Virus record (IMG/VR): IMGVR_UViG_3300032202_000029
Location: 1-45,524 of that record
Reading direction: 5' to 3' (one strand)
Length of the DNA stretch: 45,524 nt
Source: a virus
The position numbers and the translations under genes are program-made. Positions 393-45,524 of the stretch are shown piece after piece. The notes below the pieces were generated by a model. It made no database searches. It saw only the letters and a program-made list of their open reading frames with translations, and had not been told where the DNA came from. Each line of letters opens with the position of its first letter. The stretch's first letter is position 1.

Positions 393-1412
393 ATGGCCAC
401 ACAACCGTTACCCCCGCCTCCATCGATCTACACCGCAGCCGCCCTCCAATCCGCCGAATTCCCACCGCTACGCGCCGTCATACCTGGCTTGTTGTACAGC
501 GGATTCTCCCTGCTCGCCGGCAAGCCGAAGGAAGGGAAATCATGGCTGGCGTTACAGATGGCAGCTGCCATCGCCATGGGTACCCCGATACTCGAGCGAC
601 AAGTCCAGGCCGGACCGGTGCTCATCGTCGCGTTGGAAGACGGTGGTCGCCGTGTCCAGTCACGATTGCGTAAGCTGCTGTCGGATAAAGGACCATGGCC
701 GGAATGCCTCCACCTAGCCAACGAGTGGCCGCGCATCGGTGAGGGAGGCGAAGTGTATCTCCGTCGATGGATTACCAGCGTACGTGACCCTGCCGCCATC
801 TTCCTCGACCACTTCGGCCTCGTTCGCCCGATTCAGACACGGGAGTACAGCTATGCCGGCGATCAGGCCGCAGCGAGAGCAATCAAACTGATCGCCGATG
901 AGGCCGACATCCCTATCATGGCGATCTGCCACCTACGCAAGCGACAGGAGAAAGCGAAGCTGTATGATCCGATACAGGAAGTCAACGGAACGATGGGGCT
1001 TGTCGGTGCCGTCGACACCATATGTGTATTGGAGCGAGAACAACGATTCCAATCGACGTTGTTCGTCACTGGTCGCGATGTGGAGGATGAAGAAACAATA
1101 CAGATGCGCTGGCACAAGACGACGCAGGAATGGTTACTCGACGAAACAGCGGATTTGTTCGCAACAAAGGAAAGGAACGAAATCGCGACGTTGTTGCAAC
1201 AAGCACCAATGCCGATGACGATACGGGAAATGGAATTGGCGTTGCCGCATATCAAATACGAAACGTTAAGGAAACGATGTCGACGAATGTTGGAGGCAGG
1301 ACAGATATACGTTGCCGCAGGATCAGGCGAGCATCGCTACGATATCACGCCGGAAGCGATGGCAAACGTACGGATCGAACCGTCGTGGTTACGTCGGTTG
1401 CGGGGAGAGTAA
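393..1412 (+). CDS. RepA-like / AAA_25 replicative helicase ATPase
   Basis: A 339-residue RecA-fold ATPase of the hexameric RepA/DnaB-like type. The Walker A loop is GKPKEGKS at residues 43-50. ALEDGGRRVQSRL follows at about 80-92, as in AAA_25 proteins. Walker B is AAIFLDHF at about 134-141. The GLVGAVDT segment near 205 matches the conserved loop before the last core strands. The C-terminal 80 residues look like a winged helix (TIREMELALPHIKYETLRKRCRRML). The start is set by AGGAGA at 382-387, six bases before ATG. It probably unwinds DNA at the nearby iteron and AT-rich region. No primase domain is fused to it. Family confidence is good, and the exact role is inferred. Confidence 0.85.
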   Translation: MATQPLPPPPSIYTAAALQSAEFPPLRAVIPGLLYSGFSLLAGKPKEGKSWLALQMAAAIAMGTPILERQVQAGPVLIVALEDGGRRVQSRLRKLLSDKGPWPECLHLANEWPRIGEGGEVYLRRWITSVRDPAAIFLDHFGLVRPIQTREYSYAGDQAAARAIKLIADEADIPIMAICHLRKRQEKAKLYDPIQEVNGTMGLVGAVDTICVLEREQRFQSTLFVTGRDVEDEETIQMRWHKTTQEWLLDETADLFATKERNEIATLLQQAPMPMTIREMELALPHIKYETLRKRCRRMLEAGQIYVAAGSGEHRYDITPEAMANVRIEPSWLRRLRGE

Positions 1413-1643
1413 CGGTCGCTTGTTGCAACAATTCCGGTGGTCTCTGTGCATACCCCCGGTCTCTATGTCCCAAGGATGGGTCTATCGGGATATGTATGGT
1501 ACACCCCCCTGTCCCCTCTCTTTCTTCTTTATTATCATATACTTATAATATATTGGGAAAGGTGGGAAGGGGGAGTGCATAGAGGAGGTGATTAGTATAT
1601 ATTTATGATATCGTATATTTCCGCCCATATATAGGATGTACCG
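1413..1643. other. Non-coding region with AT-rich island, palindrome and orphan Shine-Dalgarno
   Basis: No convincing gene lies here. The stretch holds the palindrome TTGTTGCAACAA (1420-1431), C-runs around 1450-1515, and a strongly AT-rich island at about 1528-1640 that contrasts with the GC-rich genome. A perfect ribosome-site sequence AGGAGGTGAT (1583-1592) sits 12 bases before an ATG (1605) that opens only a 9-codon frame, MISYISAHI. The island could be the unwinding element of an origin next to the iterons at 1855-1960. Confidence 0.55.
1521..1549 (+). promoter_or_regulatory. Possible promoter of the ribbon-helix-helix gene
   Basis: A perfect TATAAT (1544-1549) lies 17 bases after TTTCTT (1521-1526), which is a poor -35 match. 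It would transcribe the orphan ribosome site and then the regulator at 1644. AT-richness alone could produce the -10 box. Confidence 0.35.
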
Positions 1644-1862
1644 ATGTCACAATCGATTCTGTTGAATCTACCTGATGACCTTGCCGATCGTGCGCGTGGT
1701 GCGGCCATCACCGAAGGAACCAACCTGACGTCATTCATCCGTCAATCAATCGAATACACCATCCGCCAACTCGAATTCCAGCGGCAGCAACAATACCCAT
1801 CGATCCCGCCACGACGGAAACGTGATGATCGTGTACGTGGATTGTGGGGGACGGTCGATTGA
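1644..1862 (+). CDS. Ribbon-helix-helix (CopG/Arc-type) DNA-binding protein
   Basis: A 72-residue protein. Residues 2-10 (SQSILLNLP) form the expected beta strand, followed by helix DDLADRARGAAITEG, the turn TNLT, and helix SFIRQSIEYTIRQLEFQ. This is the standard RHH order, with a basic tail PPRRKRDDRVRG. Such proteins bind DNA as dimers on short repeated half-sites. Its stop codon lies inside the first unit of an iteron array, so the array is the natural candidate for its binding site, as with autoregulated plasmid RHH proteins. GGA lies ten bases before the chosen ATG. It could control the helicase gene or the origin. Confidence 0.75.
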   Translation: MSQSILLNLPDDLADRARGAAITEGTNLTSFIRQSIEYTIRQLEFQRQQQYPSIPPRRKRDDRVRGLWGTVD

Positions 1863-1960
1863 CAAATCACGTACCGTGAAACGGCAATCGATTGACAAAT
1901 CACCATCGGTGAATCGATTGACAAATGTCGCAACGTGAAAGCGTTGGTCGATTGACAAAT
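1855..1960. repeat. Iteron array, three full units and a partial fourth
   Basis: The 13-mer TCGATTGACAAAT occurs at 1855-1867, 1888-1900, 1914-1926 and 1948-1960. In the first three units it is followed by exactly 8 variable bases and then GTGAA (1876-1880, 1909-1913, 1935-1939). Unit starts are 33, 26 and 34 bases apart. The conserved-variable-conserved pattern indicates protein binding sites rather than slippage. Each unit contains TTGACA, but no -10 box follows at 16-18 bases, so these are not four promoters. Position beside a helicase gene, an AT-rich island and an RHH gene suggests an origin or operator. Confidence 0.85.
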
Positions 1961-2007: not shown

Positions 2008-2035
2008 GCCGCGCCGCGCTCCGTCTGCGCGCGGC
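2008..2035. other. GC-rich stem-loop
   Basis: GCCGCGC (2008-2014) can pair with GCGCGGC (2029-2035) around a 14-base loop. It lies just after the iterons and has no T-run on either side. It may be part of the origin or a transcript end. The surrounding 1961-2044 shows no gene. Confidence 0.4.
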
Positions 2036-2044
2036 GAGGGTTGG

Positions 2045-2140
2045 TTATCGTCTGTCAATCCACCACGCCAGCATCGCTACCACGGCGACAATGGCAATGA
2101 TCGCCAACGCCGAATCGATGGCAGCGATCGCCGTCGGCAA
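2045..2140 (-). CDS. Possible 31-residue membrane peptide
   Basis: With a TTG start at 2140 this frame encodes 31 residues, mostly one hydrophobic helix (ALAIIAIVAVVAMLAWW) ending in basic IDRR. It is the last possible gene of the minus segment that starts at 4691, and it resembles the 31-residue membrane peptide at 4596-4691 in size and make-up. The start is uncertain: only GGATGG about 11 bases upstream could serve as a ribosome site, and the frame is open further upstream without ATG. Confidence 0.35.
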   Translation of the reverse strand: MPTAIAAIDSALAIIAIVAVVAMLAWWIDRR

Positions 2141-2861: not shown

Positions 2862-3972
2862 AGGCGGCCAATGCGGTGGCCTTTTCGTTGATCTGCCGCC
2901 ATTCACTCCGTGGCAATTCGATCACACTTGCGCCCATAACCTCCAATTCGGACGCGCGGTCGTAGCTGTCAACATCCTGCGACATACGCGTCACTGCATT
3001 ATGCAGTCCGTACCGCGTCAGGTCGCCGCCACGGATGAGATGTTGCAACACACTGGATGATTCGGCGTCGGATAGTTGTCTATCCTTCGCGAAAACCTCT
3101 ACGACCTTGACCGGATCGGCGTCAATATCATCCTGCGCCGCGTCGGTCAACGATGCCACGATCTCATCGTAAATCGGACCGCCGAGCATGGCTGGCACCA
3201 TATCCGACACTGTCGACCAAAATGCACGGTCAACCTGTCGTCGAGTGTCATCCGACAGGAGTTCACGTACGGTATCGTCTATCGACGAATCGGCCCGGCC
3301 AACGTGATACTTGCGCAGGCCGCTACCTTTCCAAACGGCGAGATTCGTACACCGAACCGTATGGATACCGGGCGATACCGACAGCGATCCCTTTCCTACC
3401 TCGCTGTTCCCGATTTCGATACCGGGCTCGATCACGTCCACCTTGTCATGCGTACCGAAGTCGAAAAATCCCTTTGTCACGATCTCCCGTTTCATCCCCG
3501 GTACGACCGCCTTGATGTACAACCGATCCTCGGTCACTTCACATGAAGTAACCTCCGCCTTGGCATCGATTAGTCGTGGGATGACTGCTTCGGCGAGATC
3601 GTAATTGTCGAGGCATCGAAACCGGTCCGACACGAATGCACGAGCCCGTCCATCCAACGTTCGGACCATGCGTTTCGTCGGGTCCGTGTGCCACCAATGG
3701 TTGATATTGGCGGCGAGAAGATCGGGCGCTATGTCCCTCATCCGGTCGTAATACTTCGCCGGAATCTTCGCCTGCTCGCCAATCTGTCGGTGGGCGGTCT
3801 GGTTCACGTCGTAGTACCCTTGCCCGGTGAGTTCAACCGCAAACTGGCGATTGTCACCTTCGCCTACGACTTGTGCCTCCATCGCGGCGGTGCTCGCGAC
3901 GAAATCACGTTTCGCATTGCGTTGGCGATCCAGTTCTGCGGCCAAGTCGGTCAATGATCTACCTTGCTTCAT
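2860..3972 (-). CDS. DUF932 family protein
   Basis: A 370-residue protein from ATG 3972, where GGAGATCGACAG stands directly upstream; an earlier in-frame ATG at 4032 has no ribosome site. The N-terminal part (QGYYDVNQTAHRQIGEQAKIPAKYYDRM), the central VRTLDGRARAFVSDRFRCLDNYDLAEAVIP, and a later HTVRCTNLAVWKGSGLRKYHVGR are typical of the DUF932 family. That family is found on phages and plasmids and has no settled function, though it is often linked to DNA repair or recombination neighbourhoods. It is by far the largest gene of the early minus segment. Confidence 0.8.
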   Translation of the reverse strand: MKQGRSLTDLAAELDRQRNAKRDFVASTAAMEAQVVGEGDNRQFAVELTGQGYYDVNQTAHRQIGEQAKIPAKYYDRMRDIAPDLLAANINHWWHTDPTKRMVRTLDGRARAFVSDRFRCLDNYDLAEAVIPRLIDAKAEVTSCEVTEDRLYIKAVVPGMKREIVTKGFFDFGTHDKVDVIEPGIEIGNSEVGKGSLSVSPGIHTVRCTNLAVWKGSGLRKYHVGRADSSIDDTVRELLSDDTRRQVDRAFWSTVSDMVPAMLGGPIYDEIVASLTDAAQDDIDADPVKVVEVFAKDRQLSDAESSSVLQHLIRGGDLTRYGLHNAVTRMSQDVDSYDRASELEVMGASVIELPRSEWRQINEKATALAA

Positions 3973-5939: not shown

Positions 5940-6036
5940 CATGCCTAGTGGCATAGCCGTAACGTCAATCGCTCGGTGAACAGGCGGAAACGACGGCGAA
6001 GGTGGATGTGGACAGACGAACATCAGGAGTAGACGG

Positions 6037-6435: not shown

Positions 6436-6509
6436 AATCGTATAGCTCAATTGGTCAGAGCACTTGCGTGATAGGCAAGGTGTTGACGGTTCGATTCCGT
6501 CTACGGTAG
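6436..6509 (+). tRNA. tRNA-Ile (GAU)
   Basis: A full cloverleaf can be drawn: acceptor AATCGTA/TACGGTA (6436-6442 with 6502-6508; first pair A-A is a mismatch), D arm GCTC/GAGC with GG in the loop, anticodon arm CTTGC/GCAAG with loop GTGATAG and anticodon GAT at 6470-6472, T arm GACGG/CCGTC around TTCGATT. U33 and A37 are present. CCA is not encoded and the discriminator is G rather than the usual A, so charging may be weaker than for the host tRNA. Confidence 0.8.
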
Positions 6510-6669
6510 CAGTACGGGGCCGGTCCCTAACAACCGGGGTATTCCGACTATCCGATTCGCTGACATTGAACGCACGACTGACCGAATGACAGTACAAAGG
6601 AACATAGGTTAACCGATTTCCGATTGACCATGCTCCGGACGCTGCTGCTACTTTTTTGTAGCCGGGTTG
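6510..6669 (+). other. Stretch between tRNA-Ile and the next gene
   Basis: No gene seen. A hairpin GCTAC-TTTTTT-GTAGC (6647-6662) lies just before the next start; its loop is all T, so it is not a normal terminator. It could hide or expose the start at 6670. Confidence 0.35.
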
Positions 6670-6865: not shown

Positions 6866-7216
6866 ATGGACGACGGCAAGCGTAACGGCGAAGTGCAGTT
6901 CGCATTTCACATCAAGTGGACGTATGAAGAACACGCCTTTACGTGTCGAATGTGTCGCGCAGAGAGTGACAAAGTGCCGTTGTTGGTTGATGAAAGCCAC
7001 GGTGATCCGATATGTGAGTTGTGTTGGAATACGTTGGGGATCGGCAAGCAGGACGAAAAGGGGAAATGGTCGTTCGACGAGACGGAACAGACGATGGCCG
7101 TTGCGCGGATGTTGAATTACACCATGGGAAGGTTAAACGTGTTCGATGGAATACCGACGTTGATGCACGAGCCGGGTGAGGATCCATACGTTGTTGAACC
7201 GGAAGGCGAACGGTGA
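6866..7216 (+). CDS. Zinc-ribbon-like protein whose 3' end overlaps tRNA-Glu
   Basis: The likely start is ATG 6866 with GGAG 12 bases upstream; an in-frame upstream start at 6812 would overlap the preceding gene. The 116 residues carry CRMC at about 27-30 and CELC at about 50-53, a spacing that fits a zinc ribbon. The last seven codons and the stop lie within the tRNA-Glu gene (7196-7216): the TGA is part of the tRNA D loop. Translation and tRNA maturation of one transcript would therefore exclude each other. Confidence 0.65.
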   Translation: MDDGKRNGEVQFAFHIKWTYEEHAFTCRMCRAESDKVPLLVDESHGDPICELCWNTLGIGKQDEKGKWSFDETEQTMAVARMLNYTMGRLNVFDGIPTLMHEPGEDPYVVEPEGER

Positions 7217-7270
7217 GCCACCAGACTTTCAATCTGGCGTTAGCGGGTTCGACTCCCGTCCGGTTCGCCA
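7196..7270 (+). tRNA. tRNA-Glu (UUC) with encoded CCA
   Basis: Acceptor GAACCGG (7196-7202) pairs fully with CCGGTTC (7260-7266). The D stem is short (GGC/GCC). The anticodon arm is CCAGA/TCTGG with loop CTTTCAA and anticodon TTC, and the T arm is GCGGG/CCCGT around TTCGACT. The discriminator is G (7267), followed by genome-encoded CCA (7268-7270). The 5' 21 bases are shared with the end of the preceding coding region. Confidence 0.9.
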
Positions 7271-12900: not shown

Positions 12901-14607
12901 TCAGGTGATGTTGTTCCCGACGATGGATGCGCCGCCAGCGTTGCCGCTGTTGTTGAGGTTCGCCCCGGTGTTCCCGGTCAGGATATTGTACGAGATGATA
13001 ACGTCGGTTACAGCGTTGGCAACATCAATCCCATTTCCTCCGTTCAACCGTGCTCGGTTGCACATAACGATGGCTCGGTCGGCAGCGGTACTGTTGAATC
13101 GAATCCCGTCGAAAGTATTATCGAGACAGGTATTGCCGACCACGTTCATGTCGGCTTCATCGATGAGGATGCCGTTGTTGGCATTGTCGGTTACGATATT
13201 GCCGTTAACGATCGATTTCGGTACCTGCACCCATATTCCGTTGGCACAGCTGCGCACGTTATTGTCGCAAACAATAGCCTTTTCCGACGTCTGGACGATT
13301 ATGCCGTTGCCGATGAAATCCCATATCTCGTTGCCAATCGCATAGAAACCGAATGTCTTCTGCACATTGATGGCGGCTTCTGCTGACGTGGTCAATCCAT
13401 CGAGAAAATTACCGATGACATTGACACTGCGGATGAGCGTGGCACTACCGTTGAGATCGATCGCCTCCAATCCTGTACCTCGGATGGTGTTGCCGATGAT
13501 GGACACACCTTCGGTGGTAGCCGTGTCACTAAGATCCTGAAATAGGATACCGTAACGGAAACCCTCGATCGTATTGCCGATGATGGCCAACCGATTACTG
13601 TTGCCGATGCCAATCGCCCTGGCATTGAATCCACTACCGGGATCATTACCATCTATCATCGTATTGCCGATGATGACACCACGCTCTGCCCGCATGCCGA
13701 TACGGATTGCCGAATCGACGACGCCGTCGCAGTTGATCACATTGTTGCTGACGATGAAGTCCTTGATATCCATGCCAGTACCGTCAAGGATATCGATCGA
13801 TTCTCCGTCAGCGTTGGTTCCGCATCGATGCATCTGATTGGCATCAATGACTAACGTATGGCAACCGCCGTTGATATCGATCGCTTCGATGTCCGACTCG
13901 CCAAACCGATTGTGGTCGATAGTTATCCGTTCACAGACATTGACGTCGACATCGGTGATGACACCGGATCGATTCGCCGACACCTTGTCGAACACGTTCC
14001 CTGTTACCCGGCAGTTGATGCACGATCGTAGCCATACTGCGGCAGCGTGGTCGACGAATCGACATCCTTCCACCAGTCCGTTGGTGACGTTCTCCAGATG
14101 AATGCCGTGAATTTCAGCTGTCTGGGTTGGACGATCACCATTGATCCGCAGGTTGCGAATCGTGATATTGCTGTTGCCGCTGCCGACGGTGTCGTTTCGA
14201 ATGATGTAGTCGGTCCCCGTCCGGCCCGCTCCTGTCGCGTTGATGATCGACGTATCTCCATACCCGAACAGTGTGATATTGTCGCCGACCGTAATGATGG
14301 TCGTGCCGACATTGACGGTGGTGTTGGCCGGGATCATTACCGCACCTCCACCGTTTGCCTCAGCCGCGTCAATCGCGGCCTGCAACGCGCCAGCGTTGGG
14401 TGTCGAGCCATAGTCGAGCACGTTGAATACGGTATCGAATCGGTCGGCCAGTGTCCGAGCCTGGGTACCAGTGGTGGAGGTGACAGTGGAGGTCGAGACG
14501 TCGTCGAGGGCATTGACGCCGTTGAGAACGTTGTCGAATTCGGTGTTCAGCGCAACGGCGGTGAGGATTTCGCCTTGCTGCCAGACCTTGATTCGGGAGA
14601 TTGCCAC
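12901..14607 (-). CDS. Tailspike / parallel beta-helix receptor-binding protein
   Basis: A 568-residue protein. The first 30 residues (RIKVWQQGEILTAVALNTEF) match the short virion-attachment start seen in many tail fibres and spikes. FNVLDYGSTPNAGALQAAID then opens a pectate-lyase-type domain, and residues about 90-568 show steady beta-helix rungs with many N-x-I/V-x-G-N elements (VIGNTIEGF, SIIGNTIRGTG, SIVNGNIVTDN). It probably binds or cleaves host surface polysaccharide. No catalytic residues can be assigned by eye. It is on the minus strand between plus-strand blocks, so it needs its own promoter; the 54-base gap to 14661 is the only room, and no clear boxes are seen there. Confidence 0.8.
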   Translation of the reverse strand: MAISRIKVWQQGEILTAVALNTEFDNVLNGVNALDDVSTSTVTSTTGTQARTLADRFDTVFNVLDYGSTPNAGALQAAIDAAEANGGGAVMIPANTTVNVGTTIITVGDNITLFGYGDTSIINATGAGRTGTDYIIRNDTVGSGNSNITIRNLRINGDRPTQTAEIHGIHLENVTNGLVEGCRFVDHAAAVWLRSCINCRVTGNVFDKVSANRSGVITDVDVNVCERITIDHNRFGESDIEAIDINGGCHTLVIDANQMHRCGTNADGESIDILDGTGMDIKDFIVSNNVINCDGVVDSAIRIGMRAERGVIIGNTMIDGNDPGSGFNARAIGIGNSNRLAIIGNTIEGFRYGILFQDLSDTATTEGVSIIGNTIRGTGLEAIDLNGSATLIRSVNVIGNFLDGLTTSAEAAINVQKTFGFYAIGNEIWDFIGNGIIVQTSEKAIVCDNNVRSCANGIWVQVPKSIVNGNIVTDNANNGILIDEADMNVVGNTCLDNTFDGIRFNSTAADRAIVMCNRARLNGGNGIDVANAVTDVIISYNILTGNTGANLNNSGNAGGASIVGNNIT

Positions 14608-36229: not shown

Positions 36230-36442
36230 TCATTTCGGCACCCATACATGGCGGCCCTCGTCGACCATCTTGGCATGTTGACGGCAGTATTCACCGTTGG
36301 GTCCGTGGCCGCGTTTGCGTAGGCATTGATGGGTCAAGACGGGATAGGTAGGAACCGAAGCGATGCAGCGGTCAGGATCTTCCAGTGTACCGTCGGGATT
36401 GCCCGCCCATCGATTGTATCGACGTAACTTACGTTTCGTCAT
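36230..36442 (-). CDS. Cys/His miniprotein (70 aa)
   Basis: ATG 36442 overlaps the polymerase stop as ATGA, so it is translated with it. The protein begins MTKRKLRRYNRWAGN (basic) and ends with CLRKRGHGPNGEYCRQHA, plus an earlier Cys in DRCIAS, making a compact metal-binding end common in phage miniproteins. It may assist the polymerase but this is only positional. Confidence 0.6.
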   Translation of the reverse strand: MTKRKLRRYNRWAGNPDGTLEDPDRCIASVPTYPVLTHQCLRKRGHGPNGEYCRQHAKMVDEGRHVWVPK

Positions 36443-38916
36443 TGCCACGCTACCGCTTGACAGTCGCCCCACGATCGGTCGCTCACCTTGATCTCGCACG
36501 GAATCGTCAGTGGATCGTCGTACGGCACCGTTACCGACATACGCTGTTGTATCATCTGGCGATACGGCCACATCTGCGTCGGAAACTGCATCAATAAACT
36601 GTCATGGCCCTGCAACAGTACTTCGACCCATGGCAGCGTCGATTCGATCGTCATCCACGCCCGGTTCGTCACACATGCGACGGTCGACTGTGGTAGCCAT
36701 GCCAACATCTCCCTCAACATGGCGTCGTTGCTGTCGCCGAAAAATATCTTGTGGTAGCCGAGCTTATTCCATATCCGGGCGGGATTCTGTTGGGCGGCAG
36801 CGGCAGTACGGTTGTGCCACTGTCCGATGCCGGGGTGAGCGGTCATCCATCGACGTTGAGCAGTTTCCGCTTCATGAATGGTAATGCCGCAGGCGGATGA
36901 TGCTGTACGGGGATGGCCGCCATAGTTCGTCAGATGGATGAACCGTTTGCAGAGATCGTAGTTCGTCATCTTGACGACGGCACCGGCTTCAGAATAGACG
37001 TCGACGCCCTCAGCCAATTGTTGCTTCAGTTCAGCATCATCCGCTTCCCATACAACTACATGCAAATCGGCTTTGACGAGATCGACATCCGCCATTAGAC
37101 AACCGTCGTCGGGGATAAGCATCTTCCGCACTTCGGCGGCGAGAGCGATGTCAGGATCGCCAACGGCGTCAATCGATTTTTGTGCAGTACGTTCGGTGAT
37201 CAGGTTTTGCAGGTTGGTACCGGTGTCAAAAACGGTCAGGCCGGACGACATACGAAACGTTTCTGTTCCGGCCGGGTCGATGGTTGAACGGATACGATCG
37301 CCGTCGGGATCGAGCCATGCCCCGACGAGGTTGTTGCGCATTCCGTCTAGCTTTCGCTTGGCCAGCATTCGTTGAGCTGTTGCACCAGCAACAGTGCCGC
37401 TATCGCGATCAGCTATTCGTTCCAACGCTTTTTGATCGCACGTACGCCGCCCTTGCTGATTGGTGATCGCTTTCGCCCCAAGTACGTCATACATGACGAC
37501 GATCGTTTTCTTCGCATCGTCGTACCATGGTCGGTCGTTGACCGAAGGATTGACCGATTCCAATTCGTTGACGATTTCACCGAGACGTTGGTCGATCATG
37601 CGCCCGGCTTGTTCCTTCGCCCGGTGATTGATACGAATTCCACGCAACGTCCGCTTGACGCAGGCGGGCCACAGCTTCCGCATTTGGAAATCGTATTGTT
37701 CGCGCAAACCGTACATGTCGATCAACCCGTCTTCGGCATTCATGCATTCGACAGTGGTGACGGCGTCACGACAGTTGTATCGCCAGTACTGTTCCTCGTC
37801 GAGCGGGATGCGGTTGTACTCTTTCAGTTCGTCCTTCCAGTAAACGTGCCACCGACAGTACATGCTCGACAGGAAATCGAGTCCCTTACGCATCGTCGGT
37901 TCCTTCCCTTTGGCCGAAGTGCGTGTTTTGCCGGCAGGACGTTCGCCACCTTTCCCATCTGGGTAAATGACAGACTGTGCGACGGCAGTATCATCGACGA
38001 TGTTCGGCAGCCATCCCCAATGCCGGGCGAACATCTGGTTGTCGTAAATGAAATATTGACCGACGCACTGTGCATTGGGGTGGGTCAGACAATGTCGCAA
38101 GGCGACAATGATGGTTGCTTCCTGTTGCGTTGTCCAATACGACTCACCACTGGCACGGACGAAGGGAATGCAGATCGCTTCACGATCGCTGAAGGCCAGT
38201 CCGATACAGGAGATGTGCCCGGCAACGAATTCGAGATCGACGCCGATACGTATCGGTTGTTGGTGCAACGCCGTCCACAACCACGAAATGACGGTGTCAA
38301 CCTGTTCCCATGTTGGACGGACAAGGAAATTGAATTCAGGCGGTTCCCACAATGTCGCGTCGGCGAGTCCGTCCATCGCTCGACCGAGGTCGTGCCCGAC
38401 TACCGCGCGGAGGTTGCGCTGGCGCATCGTGGCGGCAGGGTGGTATGTTGGCATCACCATCGTCTCACCGAATACCTTGTCGGCGTACAACATCGATCCA
38501 CGCCAACGTTTGATACCAGTTTTACCGGTCAGTGCCCACAACGCTGTATTGCCGAAGGCAATAATCATGCGCGGGGCAACGTGCTCCAGTTCAGCGACTA
38601 GTTGTTGGATACCTTGAACAACGATCGGTCGGGCATGTCGTCCATGGATGTGTATCGTGTCGTGTTCGCGTCGTGATGCAAACCATTGATCGATGTCGTT
38701 CGCTTTTTTCCCCGTGTCGGGCGGCTTGGCGTTGATGACGTTGGTGATGAAACAGTGTTGGCGGTTGATACCGGCATTGCGTAACAGTCGGTTGCATTCG
38801 TATCCGGCCATGCCGACGAACGGGCGTCGGGCGCGATCTTCATCCCGGCCGTATGCCTCGCCGACAATAGCGATGTCGGATGGGCAAGGGCCTTCACCGT
38901 GGCCGAGCGTGGTCAA
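36439..38916 (-). CDS. UDG-like domain fused to family A DNA polymerase
   Basis: 825 residues. N-terminal part (about 15-185) is uracil-DNA-glycosylase-like: IVGEAYGRDED (17-27), RPFVGMAGYE (31-40), ITNVINAKPP (57-66), MIIAFGNTALWALTG (117-131), PTYHPAATMRQ (156-166). Proofreading exonuclease follows with D227/E229 (GVDLEF), D292 and Y380-D384. Polymerase motif A is DLVKADLH at 612-619 (D for the usual E), motif B KRFIHLTNYGG at 657-667, motif C GHDSLL at 770-775 (S for the usual E). The start is TTG 38916 overlapping the upstream stop; no ATG lies before the first UDG motif. The complete four-Cys iron-sulphur pattern of family 4 UDGs is not seen. It is presumably the replicative polymerase. 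Confidence 0.85.
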   Translation of the reverse strand: MTTLGHGEGPCPSDIAIVGEAYGRDEDRARRPFVGMAGYECNRLLRNAGINRQHCFITNVINAKPPDTGKKANDIDQWFASRREHDTIHIHGRHARPIVVQGIQQLVAELEHVAPRMIIAFGNTALWALTGKTGIKRWRGSMLYADKVFGETMVMPTYHPAATMRQRNLRAVVGHDLGRAMDGLADATLWEPPEFNFLVRPTWEQVDTVISWLWTALHQQPIRIGVDLEFVAGHISCIGLAFSDREAICIPFVRASGESYWTTQQEATIIVALRHCLTHPNAQCVGQYFIYDNQMFARHWGWLPNIVDDTAVAQSVIYPDGKGGERPAGKTRTSAKGKEPTMRKGLDFLSSMYCRWHVYWKDELKEYNRIPLDEEQYWRYNCRDAVTTVECMNAEDGLIDMYGLREQYDFQMRKLWPACVKRTLRGIRINHRAKEQAGRMIDQRLGEIVNELESVNPSVNDRPWYDDAKKTIVVMYDVLGAKAITNQQGRRTCDQKALERIADRDSGTVAGATAQRMLAKRKLDGMRNNLVGAWLDPDGDRIRSTIDPAGTETFRMSSGLTVFDTGTNLQNLITERTAQKSIDAVGDPDIALAAEVRKMLIPDDGCLMADVDLVKADLHVVVWEADDAELKQQLAEGVDVYSEAGAVVKMTNYDLCKRFIHLTNYGGHPRTASSACGITIHEAETAQRRWMTAHPGIGQWHNRTAAAAQQNPARIWNKLGYHKIFFGDSNDAMLREMLAWLPQSTVACVTNRAWMTIESTLPWVEVLLQGHDSLLMQFPTQMWPYRQMIQQRMSVTVPYDDPLTIPCEIKVSDRSWGDCQAVAWQ

Positions 38917-45348: not shown

Positions 45349-45524
45349 TACCCGTCCCCCATTGGCGGAAACGGCGTACCTCGCTCGACGTTTGGCAGAT
45401 ATTTCCGCATCAACCCGACAAGGTCGTGTTCCTTACGTATCCCCTTTGCCGCCGCTTTCTGTATCGCCTCACGCCGTATCGCTACACCACGTTCGGTTAC
45501 GGCAAGCATTTCCGCATCGGTCAA
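45348..45524 (-). CDS. Hypothetical protein, 3' part (continues from the left end)
   Basis: The C-terminal part of the 84-residue protein that starts at 133. The visible end is RKEHDLVGLMRKYLPNVERG and then a Pro-rich tip. Positions 45470-45524 repeat 1-55, so those codons must be counted once. Confidence 0.75.
   Translation of the reverse strand: MTDAEMLAVTERGVAIRREAIQKAAAKGIRKEHDLVGLMRKYLPNVERGTPFPPMGDG
45470..45524. repeat. Terminal direct repeat, right copy (contig overlap)
   Basis: Identical to positions 1-55; see the left copy. It marks the circular join. Confidence 0.95.

Follow-up and report, generated by a model that had tools for sequence, protein, structure and literature searches.

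For environmental phages, replication origins are, to our knowledge, mostly unknown, and the question here is whether one can be located in the virus record IMGVR_UViG_3300032202_000029, analysed over its whole length (the window, 45,524 nucleotides). The first-pass annotation had proposed that a RepA-like helicase gene, an AT-rich island, a gene for a ribbon-helix-helix (RHH) protein and a repeat array together form a plasmid-like initiation module in a lytic phage of linear podovirus type. All four elements lie where that annotation had placed them, according to Pfam, base composition, AlphaFold2 (AF2) modelling with Foldseek searches, and exact sequence matches. We consider it probable that the phage origin, together with its control gene, occupies the region that follows the helicase stop codon and extends to about 2062, the region serving for initiation and the RHH protein for its tuning.

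Anatomy of the region

The features discussed below are the following.

393..1412, + strand: initiator-helicase gene, 339 aa, with a RecA-like AAA_25/RepA core and a C-terminal winged helix
1167..1346, + strand: predicted winged helix, residues 259-318, from the secondary structure of the AF2 model
1257..1295, + strand: recognition helix ETLRKRCRRMLEA, located by alignment
1441..1457 (left) and 1569-1585 (right), no strand: weak 13/17 inverted repeat flanking the island, found by eye
1466..1471, - strand: GGGACA site 1, the core predicted by the family code for K293
1510..1515, - strand: GGGACA site 2, the same predicted core
1525..1634, no strand: AT-rich island, a candidate for the unwinding element; no other 110-bp stretch of the genome is as rich in AT
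1644..1862, + strand: gene for a predicted ribbon-helix-helix protein, 72 aa (AF2 and Foldseek)
1855..1867, + strand: 13-mer copy 1, exact match, overlapping the RHH stop codon
1888..1900, + strand: 13-mer copy 2, exact match
1914..1926, + strand: 13-mer copy 3, exact match
1948..1960, + strand: 13-mer copy 4, exact match, without the GTGAA block
2009..2038, no strand: GC-rich hairpin past the array (whole-region z -1.9)
2053..2060, - strand: inverted GATTGACA core, from the genome motif count

The product of 393-1412 appears to be a replicative helicase of the AAA_25/RepA type, as judged from its profile match (Pfam AAA_25, E=4e-25, above the cut-off), the Walker A motif GKS kept in the alignment, and a predicted RecA-like core. 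Its AF2 model (mean pLDDT 86) is matched by Foldseek to DnaB, RepA (1nlf) and T7 gp4, and its best relative of solved structure by sequence (PDB) is RSF1010 RepA (E=1.5e-5). The model ends in a winged helix composed of helices 259-270, 277-283 and 289-301 and strands 305-308 and 315-318; these three helices and the wing align with those of homologues. K293 of the recognition helix stands at the site whose residue, in the homologues, determines one base of the repeats, and is directly followed by R, where homologues usually have T. Given this R and the strong divergence of the protein (end branch of 5.2 on the tree), its specificity may be altered. An alignment of eight helicase sequences was also tried as a search query and set aside as too divergent. 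As a separate observation, a perfect 12-bp palindrome, TTGTTGCAACAA, is found at 1191-1202, near the end of the helicase gene, and again at 1420-1431, just past its stop codon, with a 10/12 variant at 3040.

The protein encoded at 1644-1862 has no match in Pfam or PHROG. In its AF2 model (mean pLDDT 73) a short N-terminal stretch precedes helices 11-24 and 28-50, and the top Foldseek matches are RHH proteins, e.g. Arc, PutA, CopG and antitoxins, at weak scores (prob ~0.99, E ~0.1-0.5, none at E<=0.001). The model is thus consistent with the strand-helix-helix order of RHH proteins at these weak E-values, the N-terminal strand not being formed in the monomer. No toxin partner was identified beside the gene.

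Downstream, TCGATTGACAAAT is present in four exact copies, at 1855, 1888, 1914 and 1948 (spacing 33, 26 and 34 bp); the rest of the genome contains no copy with 0 or 1 mismatch. In shuffled sequence, a 9-mer was never found four times within 250 bp. Three of the four copies extend into 8 variable bases and GTGAA, so that the earlier description of a 3.5-unit array whose variable core is 8 bases long holds, as three full units and a fourth copy without GTGAA. The motif GATTGACA occurs six times in the genome, five of them at 1857-2060 (four direct, one inverted). In units 1 and 2 a dyad is maintained by letter changes that compensate each other (TCACG-TAC-CGTGA in one, TCACC-ATC-GGTGA in the other), which would suit a dimeric protein. 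The array at 1855-1960, which begins 443 bp past the helicase stop codon, is the only non-coding array in the genome. The sole other notable repeat cluster, at 13490-13690, was considered as a second origin and ruled out, as it consists of coding repeats of a right-handed beta-helix protein (12901-14607, - strand), probably a tail spike, whose repeats resemble an iteron array at the DNA level.

Scans of IMG/VR for the 13-mer core returned mostly coding repeats. The exceptions are two phages (L235/L236 and L239) that carry CGATTGACAAA arrays with a 36-bp period, at 5063-5260 in L236 and at 2576-2656 in L239; CGATTGACAAA has the same 11 letters as the array studied here. In both, the array lies inside an initiator-like gene common to these otherwise unrelated phages (proteins 37% identical), with a Toprim gene downstream in L236. 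Our phage genome contains no homologue of this gene that would account for the common letters.

Between the helicase gene and the RHH gene, the island at 1525-1634 is 67.3% AT, compared with 61.8% for the runner-up 110-bp stretch of the genome, and it may also hold the promoter of the RHH gene. Both GGGACA sites are located directly behind the helicase gene and adjoin the island; two occurrences in 231 bp compare with 0.09 expected (P=0.004, uncorrected for the choice of motif). Within 1583-1634 the island also contains AGGAGGTGATT, a long anti-Shine-Dalgarno match preceding a 9-codon ORF (1605-1634), with unusual spacing both to that ORF and to the RHH start.

Concerning the genome as a whole, positions 1-55 of the record are repeated exactly at 45470-45524. 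The assembly is therefore circular, with a circle of ~45,469 bp and an arbitrary record start, and the label of a linear podovirus is not borne out. Pfam and PHROG scans of the genome found no integrase and no partition ATPase; despite this, a lytic lifestyle is not established, because many genes have no known relatives. A turn of the GC skew at 1.5-2.0 kb, proposed earlier as a check, is absent: the cumulative minimum lies at 5,974, where gene direction changes, and skew was dropped as origin evidence. Near relatives identified through portal and capsid proteins have the structural half in common. Among these 37 records, one has a weak match to the helicase and none has the RHH gene; searches of IMG/VR with exact peptide patterns likewise returned no close relative with either protein, and no relative retaining the two genes together was found. 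As the near capsid relatives do not have this helicase, the helicase/RHH module is left without a close comparison. Neither the missing skew turn nor the missing relatives speak for or against an origin at this place. AAA_25 genes are present in three distant capsid relatives; in one of them, L113, a dense iteron-like array of the GTAAGCACA type (760-935) lies ~500 bp upstream of the AAA_25 helicase gene and not behind it. Elsewhere, the phage genome has a single gene of 825 aa (36439-38916, - strand) for a family A DNA polymerase fused with a uracil-DNA glycosylase domain of the family 4 type, and two tRNA genes, Ile(GAT) at 6436-6510 and Glu(TTC) at 7196-7270.

Repeat arrays and recognition helix in the helicase family

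Homologues of the helicase were gathered from plasmids, IMG/VR and genomes, and in 79 of them the C-terminus was covered. An array was scored when a 7-mer was repeated beyond chance within 350 bp 3' of the helicase match. By this measure, 57% of the 79 homologues have a significant repeat behind the helicase, whereas in the same loci the figure is 4% for the 350 bp on the 5' side, 4% further 3' and 5% inside the gene. The arrays are tandems with 8-9 bp spacing and inverted copies ~20-60 bp off, often overlapping the gene end, and have the cores GGGACA, CGGACA, GTGACA, TTGGACA, TTTGACA and GGAACA.

Comparison of the arrays with the winged helices revealed a simple correspondence between one residue, X in the pattern R-X-T-C-x-R-M of the recognition helix, and a single base in the repeats. 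In 57/57 scorable loci, K or R at this position is accompanied by GGACA and Q by TGACA, with mixed arrays in 4 further loci; this final count used a stricter recognition-helix pattern and was taken on the same data set in which the code had been spotted. On a tree based solely on the ATPase portion, residue and motif each switch about 8 times, and they do so jointly at 4/4 switches on well-supported branches; the loci are related to each other, and four independent switches cannot by themselves reach P=0.05. Sister phage loci of the same layout illustrate the correspondence: L137 (780-880) combines Q with TTTGACA, and L123 (1890-1985) combines K with TTGGACA in its main copies. A pair from Kitasatospora likewise has R with GGGACA (L194) and Q with GTGACA (L203), while among other phage loci L127 has K with GGGACA and L129 has Q with a mixed array. 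Across L155-L234, mostly actinobacterial genomes, the code is seen in the 350 bp that follow the helicase match on its 3' side. Where arrays overlap the coding end, the encoded VP repeats (L127) become VT repeats (L126, L129) as the motif differs. From the covariation of residue and base we infer that helicases of this family use the winged helix to bind the arrays that follow their own genes. No description of such a code was found in the open-access literature, subscription journals being outside the search.

The phage departs from its homologues in several respects. It has no enriched 7-mer in the 350 bp starting at 1380 or at 1413; its array starts well beyond the stop codon, with the RHH gene in between, whereas those of the homologues start at the gene end; and its copies are spaced 26-34 bp, compared with 8-9 bp. 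Moreover, the 13-mers contain TTGACA, where GGACA would be expected from K293. The two GGGACA sites do agree with the code for K293, and they occupy the place where it would put the whole array, but with only two copies they are far fewer than in homologues.

Origin model and competing readings

The origin is likeliest at this region because the helicase gene is followed, on its 3' side, by the sole non-coding array of the genome, whose TTGACA core and additional inverted copy fit the family. In the model that we favour, the 393-1412 protein would be a self-targeting initiator helicase of the RepA/DnaB-like type, presumably hexameric, whose C-terminal winged helix would recognize short repeats 3' of its own gene. 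Once it is bound, the AT-rich island at 1525-1634 would open and the helicase would load, and the PolA-type polymerase of the phage might then extend primers made by some primase. Initiation would most likely be tuned by the RHH protein, whose gene separates helicase and array and which could act as a transcriptional repressor or as a competitor at the repeats. That the region is a module for replication initiation is supported mainly by the arrays of the helicase homologues and by the covariation of residue and base, both of them sequence comparisons.

As for the binder of the 13-mers, the winged helix of the helicase and the RHH protein appear equally serious candidates. It is conceivable, at clearly lower probability than the favoured model, that the RHH protein binds the 13-mers, as repressor sites or sites that throttle initiation, and that the helicase has its own sites in the two GGGACA copies and in degenerate repeats around the AT-rich island (1413-1590). 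The presence of two sites of the predicted K293 type right behind the helicase gene would be accounted for in this way, and so would the RHH gene directly abutting the array and the compensating dyads of units 1 and 2. On the plasmid pATHE01, too, an AAA_25 helicase is accompanied by an RHH gene of the CopG family, and there is a precedent in PrpA, an RHH antitoxin that binds origin iterons (PMC7848731). However, the array follows the RHH gene and does not precede it, its TTGACA core and inverted copy match the pattern of the helicase family, and the GGGACA pair falls far below the site numbers of homologues. Most of the weight we give to RHH binding would also imply an origin here.

Two further explanations seem less likely than these origin-linked ones. 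TTGACA is the -35 consensus, and the array has the RHH gene on one side and genes of the opposite strand on the other, so that it could be a transcription signal between convergent genes (tandem promoters, a terminator region or other). We regard this as improbable, since no -10 hexamer lies 16-18 bp from any copy, no promoter was called there and the 13-mer is conserved well past the hexamer; TTGACA as a promoter was rejected on the first of these grounds. Lower still in our estimate stands a partition site (centromere) bound by the RHH protein, the phage persisting as a prophage in plasmid form. In favour of this reading, some RHH proteins are known to act at centromeres through sites that resemble iterons. 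In mycobacteriophages that encode repA, a parS of five repeats follows closely behind that gene (PMC7157519). Against it, no ParA- or ParM-like gene was detected in Pfam and PHROG scans of the genome. The preferred reading is therefore still that of an origin fired by the helicase and tuned by the RHH protein.

Relation to known replicons and implications

The idea of a plasmid-like module is supported as far as replication initiation is concerned, through the arrays of the homologues and their covariation with the helicase; the closer precedent is the initiator helicase of satellites and PICIs and not the classical Rep-protein iteron plasmid. In SaPI Rep and SCCmec Cch2, origin repeats 3' of the helicase gene are bound by the C-terminal domain of the protein (PMC7581432), and the origins of PICIs, situated directly behind rep, have an AT-rich region with a set of iterons on either side (PMC6092414). 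Common to these and the phage are a helicase with a C-terminal DNA-binding domain (predicted in the phage) and short repeats 3' of its gene, which in PICIs lie around an AT-rich region. By contrast, the core of the phage helicase is of the RecA-like AAA_25/RepA type, the likeness to SaPI Rep being one of layout and description, the RHH gene is interposed between helicase and array, and the element is a whole phage and not an island. Measured against the PICI arrangement, the AT-rich region is present, the exact iterons lie on one side only, and the RHH gene lies between.

RSF1010 RepA resembles the phage helicase both as its best PDB sequence match and in fold (1nlf). In RSF1010, however, a separate protein, RepC, melts oriV before RepA is loaded (PMC8965321), whereas the phage helicase has a predicted winged helix of its own and no RepC-like gene was seen in the genome. 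Homologous systems are pATHE01 from Caldicellulosiruptor bescii and the actinobacterial AAA_25-winged-helix loci, in which the helicases are 30-40% identical and repeat arrays lie at the 3' end; pATHE01 has its CopG-family gene in addition. Their 8-9 bp tandems overlap or adjoin the gene end and the scorable loci obey the code, unlike the phage array, which does neither. At pMBL6842, a replicon that encodes an RHH protein and whose origin combines an AT-rich element with iterons, PrpA competes with RepB for the iterons (PMC7848731); the phage RHH gene differs in having no identified neighbouring toxin, and its product is a candidate DNA binder by predicted fold. Lactococcal phage F13 provides a case of a phage-encoded 5'-3' helicase of the RepA/AAA_25 type, GP46 (PMC8965321), with no established link to an origin. 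For a two-protein origin switch of the kind considered here, no description was found for phages.

Layouts of a similar kind behind the RepA-type helicase are found in plasmids, actinobacterial loci and phages, and the helicase family itself spans actinobacterial genomic loci, small plasmids and phages. More speculatively, and with rather low confidence, these may represent a widespread family of initiator helicases that mark their own origins with a simple code, to which the phage would add a divergent member with a new type of iteron and an RHH co-regulator inside the origin. The practical rule is to start from a gene for an AAA_25 helicase with a winged helix, inspect the DNA beyond the stop codon and predict one base of the iteron from one residue of the protein, and the code might allow incompatibility groups to be read from sequence. 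For this environmental phage, the anatomy of the region and the family-wide covariation together provide a concrete and testable origin.
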